Shown here piece after piece: positions 42,496-47,812 of a stretch of 64,000 nt of DNA. The notes below the pieces were generated by a model that saw only the letters and a program-made list of their open reading frames with translations, did not search any database and had not been told where the DNA came from. How positions within the stretch are numbered: the stretch's first letter is position 1; every line of letters starts with the position of its first letter. Location: assembly GCF_002095435.2 (NCBI RefSeq), contig NZ_MJEJ02000045.1, forward strand, positions 1-64,000, given 5' to 3'. Origin of the DNA: Williamsia sp. 1138 (GTDB lineage: Bacteria; Actinomycetota; Actinomycetes; Mycobacteriales; Mycobacteriaceae). The position numbers were made by a program, and so were the translations under genes.

Positions 42496-43383
42496 GTGAC
42501 CTCGACGGGGATTACCAATTGGCCCGCGCCTGCGCGCCTGACGGTGGGCATCGTGTCCGCGGGTCGAGTGGGAACCACGATCGGTCAGGCGCTCGAGCGT
42601 GCCGACCACGTGGTCGGTGCCGTGTCTGCCGGGTCTGCCGAATCCCGCGACCGGGCGCGGCGCCGTCTCCCTGAGTCCGAGGTCCTTGCGCCTGCAGAGG
42701 TCGCGGCGCGATGTGAACTGTTGATCCTCGCAGTCCCCGACGACCGGCTGGCGACGGTGATCGCCGACCTTGCAGCGTCCGGCGCGGTGCGGTCCGGCAC
42801 GATCGTCGCCCACACCGCAGGCGCGCTCGGTGTGCGGGTCCTCGATCCGCTGACCGAACTGGGGGCCCTGCCGCTGGCCCTGCACCCGGCGATGACCTTC
42901 ATCGGCTCGGAAGAAGACACCGATCGCCTGCGTTCGTGCTGCTTCGGGATCACCGCCGCCGACGACATCGGACTGGCGATCGGGCAATCCCTGGTGCTGG
43001 AGATGGGGGCAGAACCCGTCCACATCCGCGAGAGTGACAGAACGCTCTACCACGCCGCCGTCGCGCACGGCGCCAATCATCTGATGGCCCTGGTCAGCGA
43101 CGCTGCCGCGGCCTTGCGAACGGTGCTCGACGGGCAGGACGTCAGCGCGGAGCGAGTGCTGGGACCCATCCTCGTCGCGGCGCTGGACAACACGCTGCGG
43201 TCGGGCCCGAAGGCCTTGACCGGCCCTGTGATGCGAGGCGACACCGCTGCCGTCGCGCGGCATCTCTCGGCCCTGTCGGCCACAGACGAGGGCATCGCGC
43301 AGAGTTATCGGGCCATGGCCAGGCGTGCGGCCTCCTACACCGACCCACCGGCCGACATGATCGAACTGCTCGAGGGCAACTGA
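42496..43383 (+). CDS. DUF2520/Rossmann-like protein
   Basis: A 295-residue NAD(P)-binding-type protein (Rv3603c equivalent). [22 protein letters not shown] is the Rossmann glycine motif, [17 protein letters not shown] the second strand region, and [14 protein letters not shown] begins the conserved middle. It lies directly upstream of panC and is coupled to it (TGATG), and some members are suspected of a pantothenate role; that is not established. GTG 42496 is chosen because ATGGAGGACGAC precedes it. Confidence 0.88.
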
Positions 43384-44300: not shown

Positions 44301-44755
44301 TTCGCACCATGATGACATCGAAGATCCACCGCGCGACCGTGACGCAGGCCGACTTGCACTACGTCGGCTCGGTGACGGTCGACACCGATCTGCTCGATGC
44401 GGCGGGCTTGATCGAGGGGGAACAGGTCTCGATCGTCGACATCACGAACGGCGCCCGCCTCGAGACGTACGTGATCGCCGGCCCGCGCGGCTCCGGCGTC
44501 ATCGGGATCAACGGCGCTGCGGCGCATCTCGTGCATCCGGGCGATCTCGTGATCCTGATCGCGTATGGCGGTCTGAACGAGGAAGAAGTGAAGCAGTATC
44601 GGCCCCGCGTGGTGTTCGTCGACGAGCAGAACAAGATCGTCGAACTCGGCGCCGACCCCGCGCATGCGCCCGCGGGTACCGATCTGAGGGACCCGAGAGA
44701 ACTCGATCCAGAGAAGTTCGCAGCCGGGGAACTGCTCACGGGCAGTACGGCCTGA
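44297..44755 (+). CDS. panD: Aspartate 1-decarboxylase proenzyme
   Basis: Makes beta-alanine from aspartate. The precursor is self-cleaved at the Gly-Ser bond in HYVGSVTVD to form the pyruvoyl group. [20 protein letters not shown] is the usual N-terminus. It has 152 residues; ATGA overlap with panC. Confidence 0.96.
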
Positions 44756-44756
44756 C

Positions 44757-45569
44757 ATGCTGCTCGCCCTGGACGTCGGTAACACCAACATCCACCTCGG
44801 TGTCTATGCCGGATCGGGTGACCATGCCCGGCTCGTCCGGGATTGGCGGATGCGCACCGAACCCCGGATGACCGCCGACGAACTGGCGCTGAACCTGCGT
44901 GGTCTGCTCGGATCCGACATCGACCAGGTGACGGCGGTGGTCGGCCTCTCGACGGTGCCGTCGCTCCTTCGGGAGATGCGCGTGATGGTGGGCAAGTATT
45001 ACGGAGCCGGACCCCACGTCCTGCTGGAACCCGGTGTGCGAACCGGGGTTCCGCTCCTGGTGGACAACCCCAAAGAGGTGGGTACCGACCGGGTGGCGAA
45101 TGCCCTGGCCGCCTACACCGCCTACCAGCGCGGTTGCATCGTGGTCGACTTCGGTACCACGACCCTGGTCGACGTGGTCTCGGCCAAAGGCGAGTTCCTC
45201 GGCGGCGCGATCGCGCCCGGTATAGACCTCGCGGTGGACGCCCTGGCCGCTCGAACCGTCACGCTGCGCACGGTCGAATTGTTGCCCCCTCGCAGCGTGG
45301 TCGGCAAGAACACCGTCGAAGCGCTGCAATCGGGCATCCTGTACGGCTTCGCGGGGCAGGTCGACGGACTGGTGTCGCGGGTACGACGCGAGGTACCCGG
45401 CTTCGACGGAGATGCCATCGCTGTGATCGCGACCGGTTACCTGGCGCCGCTCGTGTTCGACGAATGCGTGACGCTGCAGCACCACGAGCCGACCCTGACT
45501 CTCGATGGTCTGCGGCTGGTCTACGAACGGCAGCGGGACGCCCGCGCGCGATCGCGGTCGCAGATGTGA
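44757..45569 (+). CDS. coaX: Type III pantothenate kinase
   Basis: First step from pantothenate to coenzyme A; 270 residues. LLALDVGNTNIHLGVY is the phosphate-1 motif, VGTDRVANALAAY and VDFGTTTLVDVVS follow, and GAIAPGIDLAVDALAARTV is typical. It begins 1 bp after the panD stop. Confidence 0.95.
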   Translation: MLLALDVGNTNIHLGVYAGSGDHARLVRDWRMRTEPRMTADELALNLRGLLGSDIDQVTAVVGLSTVPSLLREMRVMVGKYYGAGPHVLLEPGVRTGVPLLVDNPKEVGTDRVANALAAYTAYQRGCIVVDFGTTTLVDVVSAKGEFLGGAIAPGIDLAVDALAARTVTLRTVELLPPRSVVGKNTVEALQSGILYGFAGQVDGLVSRVRREVPGFDGDAIAVIATGYLAPLVFDECVTLQHHEPTLTLDGLRLVYERQRDARARSRSQM

Positions 45570-45615
45570 TCGGGTCTGGTGTGGCCGGGCCGGGTATGGC
45601 ACAATCCTCACCGTG

Positions 45616-45651
45616 ATGAACCGGAGCTGTCAGGAGTGTTGTCGGGGCTGA
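45616..45651 (+). CDS. Putative cysteine-rich leader peptide
   Basis: An 11-codon frame, MNRSCQECCRG, with three cysteine codons including a Cys-Cys pair close to the stop. It lies 70 bp upstream of a rhodanese-like gene. GTG 45613 directly precedes ATG 45616; no ribosome-binding site is visible and CACAAT (45600-45605) ends 7 nt before the GTG, which would suit a leaderless transcript. Actinobacterial sulfur genes often carry short Cys-rich leaders that respond to Cys-tRNA supply. Translation is not shown. Confidence 0.5.
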   Translation: MNRSCQECCRG

Positions 45652-45681
45652 ATGCCTCTCGATGACCCCTGTGCCCGTTCT

Positions 45682-45700
45682 CGGCGGCTGATGACCGCCG
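45682..45700 (+). promoter_or_regulatory. Small hairpin between leader and rhodanese-like gene
   Basis: CGGCGG (45682-45687) and CCGCCG (45695-45700) flank a 7-nt loop. It lies between the putative leader peptide and the gene it may control, where an attenuation structure would be expected. Short, so chance is possible. Confidence 0.35.
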
Positions 45701-45721
45701 AACACATCTGAAAGCTCCCCG

Positions 45722-46189
45722 ATGTCAGTGCTCACTGCACCCCTGTCAGACGTCCACCCCAGCCGCGACGCAGAGATTCGTCCCGGCGAACCGATGACCG
45801 CGCGCGTCAGCGCTCCGTTGTCCATCTCTGCTGATCAATTCGGTCCTGCCCTGCACAGTGGTGCCACGGCGGTCGACATCCGTAGCCAATCCGATCGAGA
45901 CCGCGACGGGATCCTGCTGGGCGCCTTGGCGATTCCGGCTGATGACGTTCTCGCGAGGCTCGTGCCCGGCACCGCGGTCTCGCTGTCCGGTGCTGAGTTC
46001 GGTCGGCGATGGGTGCTGGTCGGTCGCGATGGCCACGACGCCGAGATGCTGACCTGGCGGCTGCAGGCGCTCGGTGTCACGGGCGCGCGGTTCGTCGCAG
46101 GAGGACAACAGATGCTGTCGCGCTCGGCCACCCGTGGACCGCTCGGCGCGCACACCGCCCGCGATCTGGAGACCTACGCCGCGCACTGA
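45722..46189 (+). CDS. Cysteine-free rhodanese-like protein
   Basis: A 155-residue protein that follows the rhodanese outline: ATAVDIRSQSDRDRDGILLGALAIP matches the first half (Asp-Ile-Arg near the CDC25-like loop), and RRWVLVGRDGHDAEMLTWRLQALGVTGARFVAGG matches the active-site strand and loop. The position of the catalytic Cys is Gly-Arg-Asp-Gly, and no cysteine occurs anywhere. It is therefore unlikely to be a sulfurtransferase; binding or regulation is possible. ATG 45722 is used, but ATG 45794 cannot be excluded. It sits between coaX and lysS. Confidence 0.65.
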   Translation: MSVLTAPLSDVHPSRDAEIRPGEPMTARVSAPLSISADQFGPALHSGATAVDIRSQSDRDRDGILLGALAIPADDVLARLVPGTAVSLSGAEFGRRWVLVGRDGHDAEMLTWRLQALGVTGARFVAGGQQMLSRSATRGPLGAHTARDLETYAAH

Positions 46190-46261
46190 TCGAGCGGATG
46201 CTGTACCTCCTGCGGCGTAATGAATTCGGCAGTGTTCTGCGCGGCCGATAGGGTCGCCTGT

Positions 46262-47812
46262 GTGAATGAAGTCCGTGGCCGAGGCCGTAACACCCCAGAT
46301 GTCGACACCACTCCCGAATCAGAGGGCGCTGATCAGACCCCGGAGCAGCTCCGGATCCGGCGCGCGAAGCGGGAGAAGATCCTCACCGAGGGCGGCGAGG
46401 CGTATCCGGTGTCGGTACCGCGAACACATTCACTTGCCGAGATCCGGGCAAAATATCCCGATCTCGAGGTCGATACCCAGACCGGCGACATCGTCGGGGT
46501 CGCCGGACGCGTCATCTTCGTCCGCAACACCGGCAAGCTCTGTTTCGCCACGCTGCAGGAAGGTGACGGCACCCAACTGCAGGCGATGATCAGTCTCGGG
46601 GGAGTCGGAGAGGAAGCGCTGGCCTCGTGGAAGGCCGACGTCGATCTCGGCGATTTCGTCTTCGTCCACGGTGAGGTCATCAGCTCGCGGCGCGGTGAGC
46701 TCAGTGTGCTCGCCGACACCTGGCAGATGGCGTCCAAGGCGTTGCGCCCACTTCCGGTGGCGCACAAGGACATGAGCGAAGAGGCGCGGGTCCGGCAGCG
46801 GTACCTCGACCTGATCATCCGGCCGCAGGCACGGGAAACGGCGCGAATCAGGGTCGCGGTCATGCGAGAACTGCGCGCCGCACTGGAACGACGCGGTTTC
46901 CTCGAGATCGAGACGCCGATGCTCCAGACCCTGCATGGCGGTGCTGCGGCGCGGCCGTTCGTCACCCACTCGAACGCCTTCGACATCGACCTGTACCTGC
47001 GCATCGCGCCGGAGCTCTTCCTGAAGCGGGCTGTGGTCGGCGGAATCGAGCGCGTCTTCGAGATCAATCGCAACTTCCGGAACGAGGGTGCCGACTCGAC
47101 GCACTCTCCGGAGTTCGCGATGCTCGAGACCTATCAGGCTTACGGCACGTACGACGATTCTGCGCGGATGACGCGGGAGGTCATCCAGGAGGTCGCGTTG
47201 GGTGCACTCGGCACGCTGACCCCGGAGATGGCGGACGGGACCACGTACGACCTCAGCGGTGACTGGCGGTCGGTGGAGATGTATCCGTCGTTGTCGCAGG
47301 CCATCGACGAAGAGGTCACCCCGCAGACGTCGGTGGAGAGGCTGCTCGAGATCAGTGCGCGAGTGGGCCTCGAGGTTCCCCCGAACAAGGGATACGGGCA
47401 CGGCAAGCTGGTCGAAGAGCTGTGGGAGCACACGGTGGGCGACGAGCTGTCGGGACCGGTGTTCGTGCGAGATTTCCCGATCGAGACCTCCCCGCTGGTG
47501 CGAGAGCACCGCACCATCGAAGGTGTGACAGAGAAGTGGGACCTCTATATGAGGGGTTTCGAATTGGCAACCGGGTACTCAGAATTGATCGACCCGGTCA
47601 TTCAACGCGAGCGGTTCATCGATCAGGCCCGCCTTGCGCGGGCCGGCGATGACGAGGCAATGGTGCTCGATGAGGACTTTCTTGCCGCCATGGAGCAAGG
47701 CATGCCGCCGACCACCGGTACGGGAATGGGCATTGATCGACTACTGATGGCACTTACCGGACTCGGCATTCGGGAAACTATCCTCTTTCCACTTGTGAAG
47801 CCGCAGCAATGA
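46262..47812 (+). CDS. lysS: Lysyl-tRNA synthetase (class II)
   Basis: Charges tRNA-Lys; about 516 residues. An N-terminal OB-fold ([24 protein letters not shown]) is followed by the class II core: RYLDLIIRP (motif 1), [24 protein letters not shown] (motif 2) and [15 protein letters not shown] (motif 3). GTG 46262 is preferred; the frame extends back to 46220 without a conserved sequence. lsr2 follows after 146 bp, as in M. tuberculosis. Confidence 0.94.

Follow-up and report, generated by a model that had tools for sequence, protein, structure and literature searches.

A conserved cysteine-codon leader before a pseudo-rhodanese gene of Williamsia, a likely Cys-tRNA-sensing attenuator

A short upstream reading frame with three cysteine codons precedes a pseudo-rhodanese gene in Williamsia sp. 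1138, and we consider it likely to be a leaderless, cis-acting translational attenuator that senses Cys-tRNA. It lies in what we call the window, the whole 64,000-nucleotide stretch of DNA that was analysed. What we observe directly is that the leader is conserved and linked to the gene that follows, and that in 54 leaders from other genera a sequestering hairpin shows covariation.

Results

The leader frame in the window

The leader frame (GTG-ATG..., M(M)NRSCQECCRG, stop TGA; 45613..45651, forward strand) has conserved Cys codons. The peptide MNRSCQECCRG runs from ATG 45616 to TGA 45651 with 3 Cys in 11 codons, and GTG 45613 is in frame one codon 5' of the ATG. An invariant core, GAG-TGT-TGT (E-C-C; 45634..45642, forward strand), is the candidate stall site from leader comparison. 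The stop codon is separated by 70 nt from the start of the pseudo-rhodanese gene (45722..46189, forward strand), whose 155-codon product contains zero Cys. The flanking genes are coaX (type III pantothenate kinase; 44757..45569, forward strand) and lysS (46262..47812, forward strand). The first-pass annotation had described the leader, its distance from a Cys-free product and the position between coaX and lysS in the same terms, and the sequence bears it out on each.

The extended -10-like motif TGGCACAAT (45597..45605, forward strand) ends 7 nt before GTG 45613, hence a leaderless mRNA is predicted. TGGCA(C/G)AAT and the 7 nt spacing to GTG are kept in 9/9 Williamsia loci, the window genome counted, which suggests that the window's leader transcript begins at GTG 45613. 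A consensus scan of 45400-46400 returned no intrinsic terminator and no consensus sigma-70 promoter, and a search of 44700-46400 with 4227 Rfam families gave three matches up to E 10, every one under its gathering score. The probable ribosome-binding site (RBS) of the pseudo-rhodanese gene, GAAAG (45710..45714, forward strand), is conserved in the 9 rows of alignment A4. Beyond this leader, TGGCAnAAT with 8 nt to GTG was seen with near-identical spacers across several genera (g6, g10 and g23), perhaps marking further conserved leaderless starts.

By Cys count alone the leader is not significant: at least three Cys occur in 7 of the 554 window frames of 6-15 codons (both strands, nested starts counted). 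The pattern CxECCxG has 6 sites in the window's genome, and the 5 besides the window leader were judged non-leaders. Two patterns that require three Cys codons ahead of a stop matched 20 and 19 times, no more often than their reversed-pattern controls (20 and 19). Among the three-Cys loci L243-L271 the scored frames were a dioxygenase leader, a frame inside a transporter-like gene and the CCC frame of L264/L271. The last (G000:C39) is a 23-codon GTG frame ending CCC, 19 nt 5' of a long frame that, by eye, looks unrelated to sulfur genes.

Conservation in close relatives

The first-pass annotation had proposed comparing the Cys codons among close relatives, and its idea withstood this check: the codons are kept in those relatives and across the family, with TGT as the fixed choice. 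The leader is present in 9/9 Williamsia genomes compared (its own included) with equal spacing to the -10-like motif, and a Cys-codon leader stands at 26/26 named Williamsia, Gordonia and Jongsikchunia orthologue loci. E-C-C is present in 25 of these; the deviant leaders are L084, which reads SCQVCR, and L088, which is without the first Cys. Over the first 65 bases of the transcript, identity to L067-L069 is 65, 64 and 65 bases, respectively, whereas dS against the same three relatives is 0.30-0.62 for the pseudo-rhodanese gene and 0.17-0.59 for coaX. The leader is significant because it is conserved in the genus and its 65 bases are nearly identical despite the downstream dS of 0.30-0.62. A chance origin is thus ruled out by conservation and not by the Cys count.

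Within the fetched stretches of the 26 loci lysS was found in 26/26 (about 1 kb farther in L079) and coaX in 18. In Williamsia sterculiae (L080) the leader and the pseudo-rhodanese gene sit together between coaX and lysS but on the other strand, hence they appear to have been inverted jointly.

The pseudo-rhodanese

The 155-residue product is rhodanese-like, with Gly at the catalytic Cys position (LVGRDGHDAE). The PF00581 profile scores the window protein at 14.3 bits, under the curated cut-off of 22.2, and, as to a rhodanese fold, profile comparison reaches 2hhg_A at E 0.01. The dN/dS ratio of about 0.12-0.16 (against three relatives) points to purifying selection.

The first-pass annotation had made the absence of Cys from the product its central point. 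This does not hold across the orthologues: counted from the first ATG, 19 of the 26 named ones are Cys-free and 7 contain Cys. The constant feature is instead the loss of the catalytic Cys, which is replaced by Gly, Ser or Thr in 27/27 Williamsia, Gordonia and Jongsikchunia sequences. In a tree of 28 of 31 rhodanese rows (three were dropped as their catalytic residue was not recognised, and g27 is absent) one branch with support 95/94 splits Cys-less from Cys-keeping rhodaneses. A role in sulfur metabolism, regulatory or through binding, is probable for the Cys-less rhodanese relative of Williamsia and Gordonia.

Family-wide distribution and the coaX-lysS slot

The E-C-C-R-G-stop pattern is found in 136 of 251 genomes of the family, the reversed-pattern control giving 5. 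Thirty of these loci were fetched. In 22 the match is a leader with a dioxygenase or rhodanese gene behind it; the other 8 are not of this kind, and 7 of them deviate at the GAG/TGT/TGT codons. With a stricter pattern 4 of 148 genomes of the class were positive, all from the same family, and none of the 138 among them that belong to other families. GAG-TGT-TGT is present in 107/107 distinct leaders, synonymous choice included, where part of the set was chosen from rows already reading GAG-TGT-TGT and 57 were found with the pattern GA[AG]TG[CT]TG[CT]. The next gene is a dioxygenase in 54 of the 107 and a rhodanese in 53.

The leader stands directly before a dioxygenase gene in 12 genera (g2, g6, g10, g15, g19, g21, g22, g23, g25, g26, g28 and g29), with a gap of 39-71 nt and a PF05995 match above the family cut-off. 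One of the dioxygenase proteins matches solved cysteine dioxygenases at 5e-15, and a PF05995 gene is present somewhere in the genome in 45 of 61 relatives. In the 9 loci shown, the next gene after the dioxygenase encodes a rhodanese whose C-[SED]-x-G loop is intact. The window's gene had been described as lying outside any sulfur operon, a view that the slot itself contradicts, as coaX is upstream in 11 of the 12 dioxygenase-first genera and lysS is also within reach in 9.

Elsewhere the coaX-lysS slot holds the leader and a rhodanese, with the dioxygenase absent within the stretch read. In three g27 genomes (L272, L273 and L274) and one g13 genome the catalytic residue of the slot rhodanese is Ser, whereas two g23 genomes and one g52 genome keep the Cys. 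The relatives' slot encodes both a CDO_I (PF05995) and a rhodanese (PF00581) protein, whereas the dioxygenase is absent from the Williamsia/Gordonia slot and the rhodanese relative there is without the catalytic Cys. Among arrangements with a working-looking switch the three g27 loci match the window's most closely, and leaders of this genus have the RBS hairpin intact. In another locus (L020; G031:C3) a cupin/dioxygenase-like region and a Cys-keeping rhodanese seem to be joined in a single long frame.

A covarying hairpin in the leaders of other genera

Alignment A2 comprises 54 short-gap leaders (38 dioxygenase-first, 16 rhodanese-first); loci L176 and L178 were dropped as no gene start was obtained. 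The leader on one side and the Shine-Dalgarno (SD) sequence and start codon on the other make up a long hairpin of 18 pairs, in which 95.7% of cells are paired. Double-change cells number 26 compared with 6.8 in shuffles (0 of 500 reach 26) and at most 9 when the alignment is slid; the pairs showing double change are 5, a figure equalled by 43 of 500 shuffles. The start-codon pair is UA in 32, UG in 10 and CG in 8, so that the leaders change along with ATG and GTG starts. Invariance extends to those Cys-codon bases which the consensus leaves unpaired.

Minimum free energy (MFE) folds agree with this structure. The start codon is paired to the leader in 36/38 dioxygenase-first and 16/16 rhodanese-first loci, the SD window in 37/38 and 16/16, and the mean fold z is -3.9 and -5.1, respectively. 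From alignment and folding, we take an RBS-sequestering mRNA structure with the leader as one strand to hold for the 54 hairpin-type homologues. The best match of a hairpin-type covariance model in the window is the leader region itself (45613-45730; 20.5 bits, E 0.041 over 176 kb), the next reaching 12.8 bits. A strict whole-genome search with this model gave zero Williamsia matches; 12 of 61 genomes were positive, all from the same family.

RNA structure in the window's own lineage

In the window a leader hairpin can form between CAGGAGTGTTGTCGGGGC (45631-45648) and GCCTCTCGATGACCCCTG (45654-45671), together 45631..45671 on the forward strand, and nearly all of its bases are invariant in 9 Williamsia genomes. 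Directly 5' of the RBS, ACACATCTG (45702..45710, forward strand) can pair with the leader sequence CAGGAGTGT (45631-45639), and this pairing is the counterpart of the helix in the hairpin-type leaders. Folding of the window gives a closed and an open structure of equal energy, -44.4 kcal/mol. This is matched by 36 of 60 shuffles, and the alternative-fold behaviour differs among the window's relatives.

At Williamsia/Gordonia-type loci, the window included, MFE pairing to the leader involves the start codon in 5/42 and the SD window in 4/42. The z of the leader-RBS duplex averages -0.2 over 31 such loci, among which the gene starts of L003, L006-L010 and L076 are mis-set. Simulating a stalled ribosome lifts accessibility only from 0.46 to 0.49 in the Williamsia/Gordonia type; in the other set, whose 67 members are labelled CDO and include rhodanese-first loci too, the change is from 0.35 to 0.44. 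Duplex z, accessibility and sampling therefore give weak or negative evidence of RBS sequestration in the Williamsia/Gordonia loci, and judged by these models the RBS in the window's lineage is not convincingly sequestered by the leader. Pairing of the first six bases of the mRNA to bases immediately 5' of the SD is seen in 28 Gordonia-type loci, with 96.4% of cells paired and 4 double changes; in the window this 5'-end helix carries one mismatch.

A second cysteine leader before the relocated dioxygenase

Elsewhere in the Williamsia genome (G000:C47) a dioxygenase and a rhodanese with its active Cys are retained. Before this relocated dioxygenase is a second leaderless-looking Cys leader, VTVRPNPLWNRMCCC (L123 778-825; G000:C47 about 43077-43124), of the form M..LWNRMCC[CR], which ends MCCC or MCCR 43-45 nt before the gene. 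It folds onto the SD and start codon of the relocated cysteine dioxygenase: 6-7 bases of the SD window pair with the leader in 8/8 loci (7 distinct), the start codon is paired in 3/8, and one locus has a z of only -1.3.

Discussion

Mechanism and alternatives

In the mechanism that we propose, ribosomes would initiate at the first codon of the leaderless mRNA. When charged Cys-tRNA is scarce, a ribosome would halt at TGT-TGT. There it would mask the leader strand and keep it from pairing around the RBS of the next gene, and that gene would be translated. When Cys-tRNA is plentiful, ribosomes would run off and the mRNA would refold to its closed form. The element would belong to the coaX-lysS slot, serving a dioxygenase in 12 genera (with a rhodanese behind it in the loci inspected) and a rhodanese alone in others. 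We infer the transcription start, the stalling, its polarity and the continued switching of the remodelled Williamsia RNA.

Cys-tRNA sensing had been suggested by the first-pass annotation. As the best-supported mechanism it stands, mainly through the homologous dioxygenase and rhodanese leaders and the relocated Williamsia leader, but the window's own RBS sequestration is not better than that of shuffled sequences. The attenuator reading predicts that the switch is on under cysteine shortage. Induction of a cysteine-oxidising enzyme by starvation is physiologically odd, and this counts against it.

A polarity more sensible for such an enzyme would follow if the nascent QECCRG acted as an arrest peptide: with cysteine or one of its derivatives in ample supply it would stall the ribosome on or close to the stop codon and so turn the dioxygenase on in excess. 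Stalling of leader arrest peptides controls catabolic genes in TnaC and SpeFL, and these resemble the present case in having leader stalling before a catabolic enzyme. The distance from E-C-C to the stop is also fixed in most leaders, and the stall position would open the hairpin too. We nonetheless consider an arrest peptide unlikely. Several leaders have Q for R, and A, S or R for G; the relocated Williamsia dioxygenase leader reads NRMCC[CR] instead; much of the conservation is accounted for by RNA pairing; and rhodanese targets without a dioxygenase are left unexplained. In contrast to TnaC and SpeFL, the present case fits codon sensing better, and the C-terminal peptide differs between the two Williamsia leaders. 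We prefer codon sensing to a specific arrest peptide because the features common to those two leaders are a Cys-Cys close to the stop and their pairing architecture.

Expression data from relatives bear on polarity, although in neither case are the loci matched to ours. According to the portion of the Gordonia NB4-1Y study available (PMC7661421), a cysteine dioxygenase and four sulfurtransferases are raised on sulfonates as sole sulfur source compared with sulfate. With the loci not matched, this agrees in direction with a switch that is on in cysteine shortage and speaks against an arrest peptide acting in excess. In Rhodococcus IGTS8 on dibenzothiophene two rhodanese-annotated proteins are down, as given in the accessible text of PMC8557817; these data, again with loci not matched, do not speak for shortage induction.

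It is quite unlikely, in our judgement, that the Williamsia/Gordonia leader is a decaying, functionless remnant of a former attenuator. The RBS pairing is weak at most of these loci, the slot is without the dioxygenase and the leaders of L084 and L088 are degenerate, all as expected of a relic. A relic is hard to reconcile, however, with 64-65 of 65 first transcript bases identical in three relatives whose nearby synonymous sites have diverged, with compensatory changes in the Gordonia 5'-end helix and with purifying selection on the downstream gene. That the conserved stretch acts as an RNA or promoter element with an incidental reading frame would suit the strong structure and the frozen synonymous sites (107/107 at three codons), but is very improbable given that Cys-codon bases unpaired in the consensus are invariant as well, that frame and stop are preserved and that the differently worded relocated leader again has Cys-Cys near its stop.

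Returning to the attenuator as the preferred reading of the window's leader, we tentatively extend it to the family as a whole, where an RNA switch may tie Cys decoding to a cysteine-oxidising enzyme and a rhodanese. It could be shortage-induced, for sulfur scavenging and not disposal, or a QECCRG arrest peptide could induce in excess; in the dioxygenase-less slots the rhodanese alone, in several cases without the catalytic cysteine, may be a sulfur-status effector. If true, Cys-codon attenuation would no longer be confined to assimilation genes: it would also govern a cysteine-oxidising enzyme in 12 genera and, in others, stand-alone rhodaneses, by a compact element whose covariation extends to the start codon itself. 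It would also bear on the role of actinobacterial dioxygenases, since starvation-induced control would argue for sulfur recovery and not disposal.

Relation to known leaders

A 2005 study predicted Cys-codon leaders before cys operons, reporting no conserved terminator hairpin and an unknown mode, as stated in the available part of that paper (PMC1262725). The leaders given there (acnes; cbs in B. longum) share with ours the runs of Cys codons near the stop of a short leader, and differ in that ours has a conserved RBS-sequestering structure and other genes. Mycobacterial Cys-codon leaders were reported in 2015 (Shell 2015, PMC4633059), and polycysteine leaders were described as attenuators in 2020 (Canestrari 2020, as related in passages of PMC9094748, PMC13236596 and PMC9031893). 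The genes named for them in these passages are cysA2/Msmeg_5788, Rv0485/Msmeg_0932 and nirA/Msmeg_4527.

As far as these passages go, the mycobacterial leaders share with the present one a short frame with Cys codons just before sulfur genes (in the window, a rhodanese-like gene). This frame opens an mRNA that is leaderless there and predicted to be so here, and in both cases ribosome stalling is proposed to free the RBS. They differ in their targets, which here are cysteine dioxygenase and rhodaneses, some without the catalytic Cys, and in that the leaders described here have a family-wide E-C-C core whose codons are fixed and a hairpin whose covariation takes in the start codon. In the open-licence literature searched we recognised no description of the leader, of Cys attenuation of a dioxygenase operon, of a start-codon hairpin or of retargeting to a Cys-less rhodanese; most matches were judged by their listing, and a prior mention is possible.

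Further observations at the locus

One locus, L073 (NZ_JNYV01000006.1), is titled Kitasatospora arboriphila and carries a coaX-leader-lysS arrangement like that of Williamsia muralis; the entry looks mislabelled or contaminated. In the window, TAGGGT at 46249 lies shortly 5' of GTG 46262, the start of lysS. From this closeness lysS may have a transcript start of its own, possibly a leaderless one 3' of the ATG 46220 frame.
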